From positions 62,001 to 126,000 of the forward strand of contig CANMQH010000008.1 in NCBI GenBank assembly GCA_947499935.1: a stretch of 64,000 nt of DNA, read 5' to 3'. Positions 45,432 to 51,482 of this stretch are shown here, one piece after another. Below the pieces are notes generated by a model. The model was not told the origin of the DNA and did not search any database. It was given only the letters and a program-made list of their open reading frames with translations. Numbering within the stretch: the first letter of the stretch is position 1; each line of letters opens with the position of its first letter. Source of the stretch: an uncultured Algibacter sp. Lineage in GTDB: Bacteria > Bacteroidota > Bacteroidia > Flavobacteriales > Flavobacteriaceae. Both the position numbers and the translations under genes were made by a program.

Positions 45432-46478
45432 TTAGGCATTAAAATTTTTCCAGCCTTGAGCTTTAAGTGGAATTCTAGAATCTGCTCTAGTTACCAAATG
45501 CATGCCTTCTTTTGCTTCTTTCATATAGCCAATAATACTTAAATTAGGGTTGGCTTTAATTTTAGGAAAATCGGCTTGAGAAACCGTAAATAAAAGTTCG
45601 TAATCCTCTCCTCCATTCAGCGCCACTGTAGTGCTATCTATATTAAATTCTTCGCAAGTAGAAATCACTTGAGGATCTAATGGTATTTTATCTTCATATA
45701 AATCACATCCTACATCACTTTGTTTACATAGGTGTATAATTTCAGAAGATAACCCATCACTTATATCAATCATAGAGGTTGGCTTAACTTCTAAATCTTT
45801 TAACAATGTAATAATATCTTTTCGAGCTTCAGGCTTTAATTGTCGTTCAACAATATAATTGTAAGGTTCTAAATCTGGCTGACTATTTGGGTTTACCTTA
45901 AACACAGCCTTTTCGCGTTCTAAAACTTGTAACCCCATGTATGCCGCGCCCAAATCTCCCGAAACCACCAATAAATTATCTGGCTTGGCACCAGTTCTGT
46001 ATATCTCCTCGTTAGCATTCACCTCTCCAATAGCCGTAACAGATATTAATAACCCTGTATTGGAAGACGTTGTATCTCCTCCAATAACATCAATGTTATA
46101 TATATTGGCTGCTGTTTCAATACCTGCATACAAATCTTCTAAAGCCTCTAAAGGAAAACGATTAGACACTGCAATAGAAACAGTCACTTGAGTTGCCTTG
46201 GCATTCATGGCATAAACATCAGATAAATTTACGACAACGGCCTTATATCCTAAATGCTTTAAAGGCATATAGCTTAAATCAAAATGCACCCCTTCTACAA
46301 GTAAGTCTGTGGTAACAACAATCTGCTTATCATCAAAATTAAGTACAGCAGCATCATCGCCAATACCTTTTATGGTTGATGATTGTGTAATCTTAAAGTT
46401 TTTTGTTAAATGATCTATAAGTCCAAACTCTCCTAAATCACTTATTTTTGTATGCGATTGATTTTTATCTTCTATCAT
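45432..46478 (-). CDS. thiL: Thiamine-monophosphate kinase
   Basis: 348 residues. Phosphorylates thiamine monophosphate to the active cofactor thiamine diphosphate. Recognisable pieces are GIGDDAAVL near residue 40, the VVTTDLLVEGVHFDLSYMP Mg/ATP segment, GGDTTSSNTGLLISVTAIG, MIDISDGLSSEIIHLC and NGGEDYELLFTV. It is a PurM-like fold kinase with all hallmark motifs. The start is set by a -7 box four bases upstream of the ATG, suggesting a leaderless message. Confidence 0.96.
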   Translation of the reverse strand: MIEDKNQSHTKISDLGEFGLIDHLTKNFKITQSSTIKGIGDDAAVLNFDDKQIVVTTDLLVEGVHFDLSYMPLKHLGYKAVVVNLSDVYAMNAKATQVTVSIAVSNRFPLEALEDLYAGIETAANIYNIDVIGGDTTSSNTGLLISVTAIGEVNANEEIYRTGAKPDNLLVVSGDLGAAYMGLQVLEREKAVFKVNPNSQPDLEPYNYIVERQLKPEARKDIITLLKDLEVKPTSMIDISDGLSSEIIHLCKQSDVGCDLYEDKIPLDPQVISTCEEFNIDSTTVALNGGEDYELLFTVSQADFPKIKANPNLSIIGYMKEAKEGMHLVTRADSRIPLKAQGWKNFNA

Positions 46479-46496: not shown

Positions 46497-46504
46497 TAAT
46501 TTTG
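46497..46504 (+). promoter_or_regulatory. Candidate -7 box for the propeller-MbnP-MbnH operon
   Basis: TAATTTTG matches TAnnTTTG. It is 48 bases before the ATG at 46553 and only six bases from the divergent thiL box, so the two promoters overlap face to face. Confidence 0.42.
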
Positions 46505-46552
46505 TTTTTACTATATTTATACGAAAACATAACCTATTTAGTTATAACATAA

Positions 46553-47815
46553 ATGCTACGCATGAAATCTCGAATTTTAAATAAAATATCCTTTGCTTTA
46601 ATTTTATTAATTGCTTTTCAAAATTGCTCTAATAATGATGATAAAGGCTCTGAAGAAACTATAACTAAATGTGAAAATGGTTTCGCAGGTATATACCCTT
46701 GTAATGGATACGATTTGTTGGCAAACATACCTACATCTAGATTAACATCAGATGTTAGTGTAACACTAGTATCTGTAAACGGTAATGATATTTGGGGATG
46801 GACAGATGCATTAAATGGAAACGAATATGCCATAGTTTGTACTACCAATAGTGCGGCTTTTGTTAATATTACCGACCCTATAAACCCAATCATTTTAGGC
46901 AGAATTGATACAGAAACTGTTGATAATTCTTGGCGTGATGTAAAAGTATACAAAGACCATGCTTTTATTGTCGCAGATAATGCAGGTGCTCATGGTATGC
47001 AGGTTTTTGATTTAACAAGACTTAGAAACGTAGCTAATCCTCCAGAAGTTTTTACACCAGATTTTGTATATGATGGTATTGGCAGCTGTCATAATATTTT
47101 TATAAATGAAGATGAAGGTGTCGCTTATTTAGTGGGGTGCGATGTATTTAGTGGAGGACCTGTTTTTATTGATATTAGCAACCCTACCAATCCTACCCAG
47201 CTAGGGGCTTATGCAAACGATGGCTATTCTCACGATGCACAAGTAGTAACTTATAATGGACCAGATACCGATTACACAGGCAAACAAATTTATATAGGTA
47301 GTAATGGTAATCGGTTTGGCACTAACAAAGTGGTTATTCTTGATGTTACAGATAAAACTAACCCTGCATTTATTGCAGATGTGAGCTATCCCAACCCAGG
47401 TTTTGCACATCAAGGTTGGTTTACAGAAGATATGACACATTTTATTTTTGGAGATGAATTGGATGAAACCAATAATGGCACCAATACAAGAACACTTGTT
47501 TTTAATTTAACAGATTTGGATGCTCCAGTTTTATCCTCAACGTATCTGGGTCCAACATTAGCAGTAGATCATAATGGTTATGTAAAAAGGGATACTTACT
47601 ACCTAGCAAATTATAGAGCAGGTTTAAGAGTTTTAGATATCTCAAATATTAGCGCTCCAACAAATAGTATGATAGAAATAGGGTTTTTTGATACTTATCC
47701 TGATAATGATGATGCAAATTTTGATGGTGTTTGGAGTGTTTATCCATACTTTCCAAGTGGTAATATTGTTATAAACGATATTAATCGTGGCTTATTTATT
47801 ATTAAGAAAAGCTAA
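46553..47815 (+). CDS. Choice-of-anchor B (LVIVD-repeat) lipoprotein
   Basis: 420 residues; either the first ATG or that at 46562 precedes a lipoprotein signal (ALILLIAFQNCSNNDD). The body is an LVIVD-type beta-propeller: repeats such as AAFVNITDPINPIILG, GMQVFDLTRLRNVAN, PVFIDISNPTNPTQLG, VVILDVTDKTNPAFI and GLRVLDISNISAPT, with HQGWFTEDMTHFIFGDE typical of choice-of-anchor B proteins. It is exported and lipid-anchored. It is the first of four tightly spaced genes leading to MbnP- and MbnH-like proteins. Substrate or partner unknown. Confidence 0.9.
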   Translation: MLRMKSRILNKISFALILLIAFQNCSNNDDKGSEETITKCENGFAGIYPCNGYDLLANIPTSRLTSDVSVTLVSVNGNDIWGWTDALNGNEYAIVCTTNSAAFVNITDPINPIILGRIDTETVDNSWRDVKVYKDHAFIVADNAGAHGMQVFDLTRLRNVANPPEVFTPDFVYDGIGSCHNIFINEDEGVAYLVGCDVFSGGPVFIDISNPTNPTQLGAYANDGYSHDAQVVTYNGPDTDYTGKQIYIGSNGNRFGTNKVVILDVTDKTNPAFIADVSYPNPGFAHQGWFTEDMTHFIFGDELDETNNGTNTRTLVFNLTDLDAPVLSSTYLGPTLAVDHNGYVKRDTYYLANYRAGLRVLDISNISAPTNSMIEIGFFDTYPDNDDANFDGVWSVYPYFPSGNIVINDINRGLFIIKKS

Positions 47816-47829
47816 CTGAATAAAAAATC

Positions 47830-49170
47830 ATGCCCCATTCTTATAAACTTACCCTAATAGTATACCTAGCCTTGGTCGTATTTTGTGGATGTTCTAAAAC
47901 AGAAGACAATATAGACCCAAACCCAGTTACTAATAATATAGCACTAGATTTTGTAAAAACTTTAGGAGGCTCAAAAAATGAAAGCGCACAATCTATAACA
48001 AAAACCTTAGATGGCGGGTATGCCATTTTAGGCTACGCGCAAAGTATGGATGGCGACGTTACAACTAAAACTAATGAATCTTTTGATTATTGGTTATTAA
48101 AATTTGACCAAAACCATATATTACAATGGCAAAAAACGTATGGGGGTAGTGATGATGATAGAGGTAGTGATATTATACAAACCACCGATGGCGGTTTTGC
48201 ATTAATTGGATTTAGCCAAAGTAACGATGGTGATTTAAACGAAAATGCTGGAAATGACGATTTCTGGGTAACTAAACTAAATGCCTCTGGTAATATTATT
48301 TGGCAAAAAACATTTGGATTTCTAGGCACAGACTCTGGGTTATCCATAATTCAAACACATGATGATGGATTTCTGGTAACAGGTATTTTAGATGTTACTG
48401 CATCTAATGGACAAGGTAAAAATAGTAGTGTTTTACATGCAGGGGGTGATTACTGGGCCATAAAACTAGATGCTTTAGGCGAAAAAGAATGGAGCAAATT
48501 TTACGGAGGGTCTCTTTCTGATACACCTTTTGATGTCATTCAAACCAAAGATAATGGTTATATCATTATAGGCTCTTCAGACAGTAACGATGTCGATATA
48601 ACAAACAATAAAGGCGCCTATGATTTTTGGATTATTAAAATATCCGAAACGGGCACTTTGCTCTGGGAAAAATCCTTTGGAGGCAAAGAAATTGACGAAG
48701 CTCATGCCATTACAAGTACTGCCGATGGTAATTACATTATTGTAGGAGATACTAGAAGTAATGATTTAGACGTGTCTAACAACAAAGGTGTAGCCGATGT
48801 GTGGATTATTAAAATATCCCCCATGGGCGAACTTATATGGGAAAAAACATTTGGTGGCACTAGTTTTGATGCTGGACGCTCAATCTCAAAAACCCAAGAC
48901 GATGGCTTTATAATTTCAGGAAATTCTAGAAGTGCTAATGGGGATGTTTCAAGCAATAGCGGACAAAACGATGCTTGGATTCTAAAAATTGACAATCAAG
49001 GGAGTTTAAAATGGCAAAAATCCTTTGGAGGTTCTAATATTGATTTTGCAAAAAACGCCATTCAGCTTAACGATAATAGTATTATTGGGGTTGGAGAATC
49101 TAGCAGCTCTAATGCTGATATTATTAATAACAAAGGATTTTCAGATCTATTAATCTTTAAAATAAAATAA
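47830..49170 (+). CDS. Seven-repeat beta-propeller lipoprotein
   Basis: 446 residues with a lipobox in LALVVFCGCSKTED. Seven repeats of about 52-57 residues follow, each with a consensus like TFGGSxxDxAxSI, then TxDGGYIIxGxSxSNDGD and DxWIIKIxxxGxLxWEK. Start of repeats, by text: TLGGSKNE, TYGGSDDD, TFGFLGTD, FYGGSLSD, SFGGKEID, TFGGTSFD and SFGGSNID. Seven units predict a closed propeller filling the whole mature protein. It lies 14 bp after the LVIVD gene and 6 bp before the MbnP-like gene. No catalytic residues are seen; a surface binding or scaffold role is possible. Confidence 0.88.
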   Translation: MPHSYKLTLIVYLALVVFCGCSKTEDNIDPNPVTNNIALDFVKTLGGSKNESAQSITKTLDGGYAILGYAQSMDGDVTTKTNESFDYWLLKFDQNHILQWQKTYGGSDDDRGSDIIQTTDGGFALIGFSQSNDGDLNENAGNDDFWVTKLNASGNIIWQKTFGFLGTDSGLSIIQTHDDGFLVTGILDVTASNGQGKNSSVLHAGGDYWAIKLDALGEKEWSKFYGGSLSDTPFDVIQTKDNGYIIIGSSDSNDVDITNNKGAYDFWIIKISETGTLLWEKSFGGKEIDEAHAITSTADGNYIIVGDTRSNDLDVSNNKGVADVWIIKISPMGELIWEKTFGGTSFDAGRSISKTQDDGFIISGNSRSANGDVSSNSGQNDAWILKIDNQGSLKWQKSFGGSNIDFAKNAIQLNDNSIIGVGESSSSNADIINNKGFSDLLIFKIK

Positions 49171-49176
49171 TTTAAA

Positions 49177-49935
49177 ATGAAAACAGTTTTTTCTATGCTT
49201 TTAACGCTTTTGCTAGTATGTACATCATGCGGTAATGACGACAACTCTACTATACAAGCTACAAATATTACATTTAACTTCAACCATGACTGGGATGGTA
49301 ATCAAGTTACAAATACAAATTTTAACACGTTAGATTTTACCAATGAAAATGGTGAAAAAATGAGTATTACCAAACTACGATATCTAATTTCAGATATTGT
49401 ATTTACTGACGAGAACGACATAGAAACCAGAATAGATGGCTACAACTTAGTTGATGTAACCAATGCTGAAGGTTTATCGTTTACAGCGACTAGCGGTCTT
49501 GCTAATGGAACCTATAAAAATGTATCATTTACATTTGGGTTCAATAATAATGATAATTACCAAAATTACACCGATTTAAATTCGGCATCATGGAATGTTC
49601 CTAGTATGCTAGGCGGAGGTTATCATTTTTTGCAATTGGAAGGCAAATTTATAGATAGCACTAATGATGAGGTAGGCTATGCATATCATGCCATAAGGGC
49701 GGTTGATAATTCGGTAAGTCCACAAAAATTTCAAGACACTTTTTTTGAAGTTAATTTAGGTGAAGTCACCATTTCAAACAATACTGTTTTCAATATAAAC
49801 ATGAATATAGCCGAATGGTTTAAAGGTCCAAATACATGGGATTTAAATGTACTTAATAATATGCTTATGCCAAATTTTGATGCGCAAGTTATGATGTTTG
49901 AAAACGGACAAAATGTATTCAGTCTAGAACCCTAA
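49177..49935 (+). CDS. MbnP-family protein (lipoprotein)
   Basis: 252 residues with a lipobox (LLLVCTSCGNDD). The mature domain follows the MbnP family: NITFNFNHDWDGNQV near the start, MSITKLRYLISDIVF, TYKNVSFTFGFN, the WNVPSMLGGGYHFLQLEGKF block with its conserved Trp and His, and AYHAIRAV. MbnP proteins were first linked to methanobactin/copper operons; in that system the partner di-haem MbnH oxidises a Trp of MbnP to kynurenine, creating a copper site. Here an MbnH/MauG-type gene follows 12 bp downstream. Candidate modified Trp residues lie in HDWDGN and AEWFKGPNTWDLN. Confidence 0.9.
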   Translation: MKTVFSMLLTLLLVCTSCGNDDNSTIQATNITFNFNHDWDGNQVTNTNFNTLDFTNENGEKMSITKLRYLISDIVFTDENDIETRIDGYNLVDVTNAEGLSFTATSGLANGTYKNVSFTFGFNNNDNYQNYTDLNSASWNVPSMLGGGYHFLQLEGKFIDSTNDEVGYAYHAIRAVDNSVSPQKFQDTFFEVNLGEVTISNNTVFNINMNIAEWFKGPNTWDLNVLNNMLMPNFDAQVMMFENGQNVFSLEP

Positions 49936-49947
49936 TAATTTTATACA

Positions 49948-51015
49948 TTGAGACATTGGTTAGCATATGCTAAAGTTCTTATTGTTTTTATTTGCATTTC
50001 GTGTTCAAATGAAGACACAGCACAATACACGCCCACACCAACGCAATTACAAATCCCTAAATTATTTGAAGATAATATTTTAAACCCTGTTATTCCTCTA
50101 AATAACCCACAAACTGTAGAAGGTATTTCCCTTGGCAAAAAATTATTTTTCGACCCTATTTTATCTAGAGACAACACAATAGCCTGTGCAGATTGCCATA
50201 ATCCAAAGCATGCTTTTACCGATCCTAACAGATTTAGCGATGGTGTTGATGGTCTTTTAGGCTCACGAAACTCAATGCCACTTTTTAACCTAGCATGGAA
50301 TTACGACGAAAAATTCTTTTGGGACGGTAGTTCTTTTAGTATAGAACATCAAGCTTTTGCTCCAGTAACAAATCCTATTGAAATGGCTAATACTTGGCCT
50401 ACAGTTGAAGAAAAACTTATACAGCATCCAGAATATCCAGAGCTATTTAAACAAGCTTTTGGAGCATCAACAATAGATTCTACTCTTGTCACTAGAGCAA
50501 TAGCACAATTTGAACGCACTTTAATTTCATCTAATTCAAAATTTGATAAACACCTCCTTGGTGAAACCACTTTAACGTCTGAAGAGCTTAATGGATTTAA
50601 TGTTTTTATGGACGAAACTCGAGGTGACTGCTTCCATTGCCATGGCAGCGACAAGAATCCGTTGTGGACCGACAACGCTTTTCATAACAACGGTTTAGAT
50701 AATACATTTACAGATTTAGGCTTAGGTAATATAACAGGTGACCCTGCGGATAATGGCAAATTTAAATCGCCCTCACTTAGAAACCTAGCTTTTACAGCAC
50801 CCTACATGCACGATGGTAGGTTTCTAACACTTGAAGATGTTATTAATCACTACAGCGAAGGCTTAAAAAACTCTCCAACTATAGATCCATTAATGAAGAA
50901 AGTAGCTCAAGGTGGTGTTCGTTTAACTTCAAAAGACAAGGCCGATTTAAAGGCTTTTCTTTTAACACTTACTGATCAAGAATTTATAAGCAATCCCAAC
51001 TTTATCAGTCCATAA
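49948..51015 (+). CDS. Di-haem cytochrome c peroxidase/MauG-family protein, MbnH-like
   Basis: 355 residues from a TTG start, which gives a lipoprotein signal (AKVLIVFICISCSNED). Two c-type haem sites are present: CADCH at residues 80-84 and CFHCH at 228-232. The FKSPSLRNLAFTAPYMHDGRF segment is typical of the bacterial peroxidase/MauG family. Next to an MbnP-family gene the most likely role is MbnH-like oxidation of Trp in that partner; ordinary H2O2 peroxidase is the alternative. It is the last gene of the operon. Confidence 0.9.
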   Translation: MRHWLAYAKVLIVFICISCSNEDTAQYTPTPTQLQIPKLFEDNILNPVIPLNNPQTVEGISLGKKLFFDPILSRDNTIACADCHNPKHAFTDPNRFSDGVDGLLGSRNSMPLFNLAWNYDEKFFWDGSSFSIEHQAFAPVTNPIEMANTWPTVEEKLIQHPEYPELFKQAFGASTIDSTLVTRAIAQFERTLISSNSKFDKHLLGETTLTSEELNGFNVFMDETRGDCFHCHGSDKNPLWTDNAFHNNGLDNTFTDLGLGNITGDPADNGKFKSPSLRNLAFTAPYMHDGRFLTLEDVINHYSEGLKNSPTIDPLMKKVAQGGVRLTSKDKADLKAFLLTLTDQEFISNPNFISP

Positions 51016-51152: not shown

Positions 51153-51482
51153 ATGATTAAAGTTTCTGAAACAGCTAAGAAAAAAGTTATCGAGCTTATG
51201 CAAGATGGCGGCTATAGCCCTACCCAAGATTTTGTACGTGTTGGTGTTAAAAGCGGTGGTTGTTCTGGTTTATCTTACGACTTAAAATTTGATAAGGAAA
51301 ACCAAGAAGATGATAAAGTGTTTGAAGATAATGATATAAAAATTATTGTGGACAAAAAAAGTTTCCTTTACCTAATTGGTACTACACTTGAGTATTCGGG
51401 TGGTCTAAACGGAACAGGATTTGTTTTTAACAACCCAAATGCAAACCGTACTTGTGGTTGTGGCGAATCATTTTCCTTATAA
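51153..51482 (+). CDS. sufA: SufA/HesB-type iron-sulfur carrier
   Basis: 109-residue A-type carrier that receives and passes on Fe-S clusters. The three conserved cysteines are in GGCSGLSYDL and the C-terminal TCGCGESF. Size and motif spacing are normal. It leads the suf operon, followed by sufB 53 bp later. Confidence 0.95.
   Translation: MIKVSETAKKKVIELMQDGGYSPTQDFVRVGVKSGGCSGLSYDLKFDKENQEDDKVFEDNDIKIIVDKKSFLYLIGTTLEYSGGLNGTGFVFNNPNANRTCGCGESFSL

Follow-up and report, generated by a model that had tools for sequence, protein, structure and literature searches.

The 64,000-nucleotide stretch of DNA from an uncultured Algibacter species analyzed here (the window) carries a run of four genes, A-B-C-D, in which C encodes an MbnP-family lipoprotein and D an MbnH/MauG-type diheme lipoprotein. 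Our comparisons indicated that C and D form an MbnP/MbnH-type pair, and we see roughly even chances that D serves a different site on C, predicted to bind Cu(I) and to be free of kynurenine. In MbnP of Methylosinus trichosporium OB3b, the first Trp of a WxW motif reportedly becomes kynurenine, which is said to be required for copper binding alongside His and Met ligands (a finding attributed to Manesis et al. 2021). To our knowledge, this conversion is the only known partner reaction of MbnH-type enzymes. A flavobacterial clade in which the enzyme is kept and the target residue apparently lost would separate the MbnH-type enzyme from the Trp-to-kynurenine reaction, and the role of MauG-type enzymes beyond tryptophan would become directly testable.

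Gene C (49177..49935, + strand; 252 aa) scored 90.9 bits against the MbnP model PF20243 (gathering score, 27) and was predicted to adopt the MbnP fold, in agreement with the family named by the first-pass annotation, which had been made from the window's sequence alone. No NCBIfam match was found for C, nor any match among the sequences of solved structures, and the C profile gave one chance match there (E 0.54); the profile of class I proteins, which carry the WxW motif, matched 7l6g, the OB3b MbnP, at E 0.008. MopE and CorA were absent from the 50 top rows of each fold list, a result that carries no weight as proof.

The fate of the modified Trp was read from column counts in an alignment of 165 proteins, comprising 64 of class I, 64 of class II (the window type) and 37 of class III. 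The column that holds the modified Trp of MbnP (7l6g sequence, GMAWNW...VHVG) has Trp in all class I (64/64) and class III (37/37) proteins and in 12/64 of class II. Val takes its place in the remaining 52 of class II, the window's C among them (Val141 codon, 49597..49599, + strand), and each of these has also lost Gly173. Two residues before this column, the alignment places the Met that is reported to be a copper ligand of MbnP. Here class I has Met in 60 proteins, Leu in 3 and Ile in 1, class III has Met in 35 and Phe in 2, and class II has Trp in 60 and Phe in 4. The window's C has Trp139 (49591..49593, + strand) at this position, which is aromatic in all 327 class II rows compared (310 distinct; Trp in 317, Phe in 10).

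The placement of Val141 on the kynurenine Trp comes from class III, which bridges the two other classes: within its motif Met-x-Trp-Pro-x-x-Met-GGGYH, Met and Trp match class I, and Pro and GGGYH match class II. One result speaks against it: a direct profile alignment of class I with class II sets Trp139, not Val141, on the kynurenine Trp. We consider that alignment, and with it Trp139 as the kynurenine column, the less likely one, because class III aligns better to both sides (E-values of 4.9e-37 and 1.5e-61) than class I does directly to class II (7.2e-31), because position 173 is Gly if and only if position 141 is Trp (12/12 rows with Trp141, 0/315 otherwise), and because 12 class II proteins have Trp at both 139 and 141. 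In ten further class II loci, Phe139 is combined with Val141, leaving no Trp at either loop position. The kynurenine Trp thus appears to have been lost in one class II subclade, and kynurenine at the canonical position is unlikely to be a product common to class II pairs. The first-pass annotation had proposed a kynurenine role by analogy with MbnP and had named the lack of a conserved equivalent Trp as what would refute it. Such a Trp is lacking in the window's subclass, where Val141 stands in its place, so that the analogy was not supported there; the neighboring Trp139 is conserved, which leaves room for a shifted Trp modification.

The enzyme seems to have been retained in full. D (49948..51015, + strand; 355 aa, TTG start) scored 192.3 bits against PF03150 (CCP_MauG), and its best NCBIfam model was TIGR04039 of the MbnH family at 254.6 bits, below the cut-off of 362.85. 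Its best PDB match was the MbnH structure 6e1c (E 6.1e-50), although the canonical cytochrome c peroxidase (CCP) 1iqc also matched strongly (E 2.6e-44). Among 87 class II D rows (82 distinct), chosen at >430 bits to the window's D, the CXXCH residues of both heme motifs are invariant: CADCH (residues 80-84; 50185..50199, + strand; C80, C83 and H84 each in 87/87) and CFHCH (residues 228-232; 50629..50643, + strand; C228, C231 and H232 each in 87/87). Equally invariant are Arg107, Trp125 (50320..50322, + strand; also in 43/43 class I rows), Glu145 and Tyr302 (50851..50853, + strand), and the ten Phe139/Val141 loci are no exception. Tyr302, the predicted axial ligand of the second, six-coordinate heme, corresponds to a Tyr in MbnH 6e1c and to a Met in the CCPs 1iqc and 3o5c; on this residue D is not a classical CCP, in support of the MbnH/MauG-type assignment in the first-pass annotation. 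We take Trp125 to be the bridging Trp of the family and Glu145 its distal Glu. Tyr-His ligation is described as typical of MauG and BthA, and Met-His ligation as typical of CCPs (PMC6405878).

The WxWP and WxVP types of C separate on the C tree and are intermixed on the D tree (63 rows; 7-8 changes) and on the B tree (72 of 96 rows; 11 changes). No D position at 80% conservation separates the partners of WxWP from those of WxVP (12 versus 50 rows). D does not appear, on these comparisons, to follow the tryptophan state of C. Support is weak, however, at many branches of both the D and the B tree, and the well-supported ones force only 3 (D) and 7 (B) changes between the two types, which tempers this view. 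The WxWP and WxVP partners of the same D clade, the Trp-free Phe139 loci and the orphan C proteins without D described next could serve as natural controls.

Class II C and D co-occur almost obligately. Class II C (E ≤1e-50) was found in 114/397 family genomes and class II D (E ≤1e-95) in 113; 113/114 genomes with C also have D, and the reverse holds in 113/113, the only difference being G244, which has C without D. The locus in G244 (L060) reads thiL-C-sufA, with A, B and D missing, and that of its congener G629 (L206) reads likewise; class II C occurs in 2/6 genomes of this genus. Neither G244 nor G629 yielded a class II D when searched over the whole genome (best matches, 41% and 39% identity), the best D-like match in G244 being the D that adjoins its own class I C. 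The B query, which found matches in 126 genomes elsewhere, likewise gave none in these two; the absence of A refers to the locus.

These two orphan proteins were compared at 26 C positions conserved at ≥98% in the 326 other class II rows, a set chosen after the data had been seen. L060 differs only by H150Y and M231T, L206 differs by N135D, H150Y, H171Y and M231T, and 297/326 of the other rows change none of the 26 positions. L206, which was read apart from the 327 rows, also has Leu at 139, and both proteins retain Trp221. His150 (49624..49626, + strand) and Met231 (49867..49869, + strand), the proposed metal ligands, are each present in 326/327 class II rows and in 37/37 class III proteins. 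His171 (49687..49689, + strand) occupies a column in which proteins of all three MbnP classes have His (165/165), and we take this His, retained in the window's C, to be the copper-site His ligand of MbnP. In the C model, His171 lies at the end of strand 165-172, which is joined by a short turn to strand 152-159, and the latter starts two residues after His150, so that the two His residues are probably close in space. The His and Met changes in C proteins without D are suggestive of a link between these residues and D. Several observations weigh on the other side. L060 keeps His171 and Trp139; L060 and L206 are congeners with shared changes (142/257 aligned positions identical) whose loci also miss A and B, and the changes probably reflect one loss event. 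In the model, closeness among the four residues of the proposed site is indicated for the His150/His171 hairpin alone, Met231 being unplaced, and the retention of Trp139 in 317/327 class II rows is what would be expected of a modified residue.

Since the Trp is apparently lost while D is intact, the C-D pair likely works through a different, probably metal-binding, site. The site that we consider would consist of His150, His171 and Met231 with the aromatic residue at 139, and it would depend on D. Such a pocket would hold Cu(I) and would resemble CusF, with its Met/His ligands and aromatic cap, rather than a kynurenine site. D would oxidize the pocket, either the copper or the aromatic cap, with peroxide via long-range electron transfer, and all four proteins would act at the cell surface. 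More tentatively, and as a possibility short of an even bet, a MauG-type diheme enzyme may have switched from forming kynurenine to controlling, by means of peroxide, the redox state of copper at a kynurenine-free site in its partner. This proposal draws on the absence of the modified Trp from most class II proteins, the ten loci free of Trp at the loop, and the decay of the His-His-Met set where D is missing. If true, it would give a diheme enzyme a task in controlling the redox state of a partner's copper ion instead of in tryptophan modification.

The main rival holds that D still oxidizes a tryptophan of C and that the target has shifted two residues upstream, from 141 to Trp139, with a kynurenine-type copper site kept. 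Trp139 lies on the loop of the old target and is kept in 317/327 rows, Leu replaces it in the D-less L206, and it falls on the kynurenine Trp when the class I and class II profiles are aligned directly; even so, we think the shift unlikely, since the ten Phe139/Val141 loci still hold D with its checked residues intact, the D-less L060 retains Trp139, and in the alignment of class II with class III, which scores better, Trp139 corresponds to the Met. Full canonical MbnP/MbnH chemistry, in which the canonical Trp becomes kynurenine and the pair acquires copper, would suit the MbnP and CCP_MauG profile matches, the MbnP fold, the adjacency of C and D, and the finding of canonical WxW pairs next to A-B in the slot of some relatives. 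Barring an error of alignment, the sequence contradicts it for the window's subclass: of the 64 class II loci, the window's and 51 more have Val where the modified Trp would be, Trp stands in the window's C where MbnP has its Met ligand, D falls below the TIGR04039 cut-off, and C lacks an NCBIfam match. We regard it as very improbable. The idea that D is an ordinary surface peroxidase that clears hydrogen peroxide and has C to supply electrons or to anchor it agrees with its CCP_MauG superfamily and the strong 1iqc match, but seems quite improbable when the axial Tyr replaces the CCP Met in 87/87 rows, a Tyr that accompanies bis-Fe(IV) chemistry in MauG and BthA (PMC6405878), and when ligand-type residues of C change where D is missing.

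It is also conceivable, if rather improbable, that D acts elsewhere, on Trp221 of C or on a residue in propeller A or B. Trp221 is present in 326/327 class II rows and is nearly class II-specific (1/37 in class III), but both D-less C proteins retain it; hence it looks structural, and we think it unlikely to be a new target of D. SBP56 proteins are propellers. That a MauG-like gene adjoins the one for methanethiol oxidase, a copper enzyme belonging to SBP56 (PMC5739008), speaks for a propeller as the target. In B, Arg309 (window 48754-48756) is found in 96/96 rows (88 distinct) from cassettes with C-D and in 0/20 rows from cassettes without them, where the residue is mostly Phe. We rejected this as proof of contact with C-D because the split coincides with one branch of the B tree and hence with one event. 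For A, the comparison of cassettes with and without C-D yielded a single weak difference, Thr/Ser at position 312, and gave no support to A as an obligate partner. B is, on weak support, the likelier partner of C-D than A.

Compared with the OB3b pair (7l6g, 6e1c), C-D show both likeness and difference. The C fold, the common His and the adjacent diheme enzyme are shared, as are the two CXXCH motifs, the bridging Trp and the axial Tyr of D. The window's pair differs in having Val in place of the kynurenine Trp, Trp or Phe at the Met column, and an extra near-invariant His150 and Met231; in addition, A-B adjoin the pair, and no MbnB match (PF05114, E 0.001) was found in the window's genome, which is 99.95% complete. 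The latter agrees with the first-pass annotation, which saw no methanobactin gene; the other mbn genes were not searched. Class I flavobacterial pairs belong to the same family, and an MbnP outside class II, read as WxW in six cases, adjoins B in seven sampled genomes, four of these cassettes lying between thiL and sufA. Class I pairs keep Met-x-Trp-x-Trp, their D falls on a separate branch, and no A or B match was found at 12/13 class I loci fetched with long flanks. Class III MbnP proteins, from other Bacteroidota and in one case from KSB1, share His150, Met231 and the GGGYH loop with class II; they differ in keeping the kynurenine Trp (37/37) and mostly the Met (35/37), and the four loci read consist of C-D only.

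More distant parallels exist. MopE/SACCP and CorA/CorB likewise combine a copper protein with a diheme partner in one operon, with two His near the copper. The MopE/CorA-type site is given as Kyn-x-His plus His and water (PMC3912023), whereas C has W139-x-V141, no Kyn-x-His motif, and no sequence match to either protein among solved structures. MbnPH have been noted as partners far beyond methanobactin producers, with MopE and CorA as kynurenine copper proteins (PMC3621798 and PMC3912023). The Cu(I) chaperone CusF, described as having Met/His ligands capped by an aromatic ring (PMC6235853), offers an analogy only, with no detected relation to C and no heme partner. The methanethiol oxidase operon mtoX-SCO1-mauG resembles the present one in placing a MauG-like neighbor beside an SBP56-family copper protein, but the accessible part of its description names no MbnP, LVIVD or SBBP propeller (PMC5739008).

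Both propeller assignments of the first-pass annotation were borne out. Gene A (46553..47815, + strand; 420 aa), an LVIVD/choice-of-anchor-B beta-propeller lipoprotein, scored 512 bits against TIGR04312 choice_anch_B (cut-off, 100) and 36.9 bits against PF08309 LVIVD (cut-off, 20.2). Gene B (47830..49170, + strand; 446 aa), an SBBP-type propeller lipoprotein, matched no family model above its cut-off (SBBP lipoprotein LipL53, NF047494, 44.1 bits against 400); it is modeled with 28 strands in seven blades (predicted local distance difference test score, 80.5), the first-pass annotation having counted seven repeats. Its fold is closest, among solved structures, to the CylK propeller (Foldseek E 1e-22; TM, 0.80 by query; 22% identity). 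CylK, whose seven-bladed propeller B resembles, is a Friedel-Crafts alkylating enzyme. In L040, L066, L067 and L071, from relatives, A is repeated in tandem, with three or four copies ahead of B.

The suggestion that the propellers are partners of C-D stood in part: A-B lie beside C-D in 64/64 class II loci, but the association is not obligate. B is present in 126/249 family genomes, of which, judged by coordinates, 74 have class II C, 7 have another MbnP adjacent, and 45 have no adjoining C. Six of the 7 non-class-II proteins were read as WxW, and that of G178 was assigned by score only. At 20 loci read from the 45 genomes without an adjoining C, A and B are present in 20/20, sufA in 20/20 and thiL in 18/20, and no C or D match was found, which indicates that A-B also stands alone. 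Thus, A-B is a two-gene unit between thiL and sufA in many family genomes, also without C-D (L185-L204). On the B tree (59 of 116 rows), B with C-D and B without C-D are separated by one branch (100/99), as would be expected from a single insertion of C-D or a single loss. Insertion of the C-D module into the neighboring A-B unit is the probable history. The class-I-associated B rows form no single group apart from the class II B rows, and this mixture fits a later in-place exchange of the C-D pair.

The four + strand open reading frames are separated by 14, 6 and 12 bp, the same gaps as in the first-pass annotation, whose start at 46497 lies 56 bp 5' of the first ATG (46553) and whose remaining coordinates are correct. 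The recurrence of the gene order, which that annotation had left to be examined, is complete: A-B-C-D follow one another in the same order and on one strand in all 64 class II loci fetched with flanks, so the order is not due to chance. Gaps of ≤60 bp were seen in 60 (A-B), 64 (B-C) and 62 (C-D) of these loci. Outside the system, the slot is flanked in the window by a thiL-like gene with an AIRS domain (45432..46478, - strand) and by a sufA-like gene (51153..51482, + strand; PF01521). A thiL homologue lies in the fetched stretch of 58/64 class II loci, sufA in 63/64 and both in 57/64. In L111, L169, L171 and L172, the A-B-C-D run between thiL and sufA has a canonical WxW pair as its C and D; in L175, thiL is followed by the contig end, and L170 has neither flank in the fetched stretch.

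By eye, all four proteins carry a lipobox-like Cys followed by acidic residues (A, C-SNNDDK; B, C-SKTEDN; C, C-GNDDN; D, C-SNEDT). An automatic count, usable for C only since it often picked the wrong Cys in A, B and D, gave at least two acidic residues after the lipobox in 60/64 class II C proteins. SDDFE is a derived export signal of surface lipoproteins in Flavobacterium johnsoniae (PMC5080379), and surface exposure of A-D is plausible.

PF20243 is present in 118/249 genomes of the window's family. Motif classification covered 111 loci, namely the 30 best-scoring, 80 picked across the remaining list, and the window, a sample rather than every PF20243 place. It gave 64 loci of class II, 43 of class I and 4 unclassified; by sequence, L060 among these four is class II with a changed motif, the other three (L043, L061 and L068) being WxW types. 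Each class forms one group on the C tree (98 of 165 rows: 29/64 class II, 32/64 class I, 37/37 class III), with supports of 100/100 for class I, 100/99 for class II and 96/90 for class III. A search of 395 genomes of the phylum returned five matches better than 1e-90, all inside the window's family; the 25 weaker matches obtained as loci comprised 4 of class III and 21 of class I by motif. Among the titles and abstracts listed by a literature search, most of them off the subject, none concerned class II MbnP proteins, most subscription papers being beyond its reach, and we make no claim that they are unpublished. Some public entries already label class II proteins "MbnP family protein", a label that does not imply a kynurenine site.

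Two further observations concern relatives of the pair. A second CCP_MauG protein in the window's genome (L002, G000:C3:124510-124938, in a 601-residue open frame) is very distant from D. In L183, from the same phylum, a second C-like frame and two adjacent D frames possibly represent a duplicated pair.

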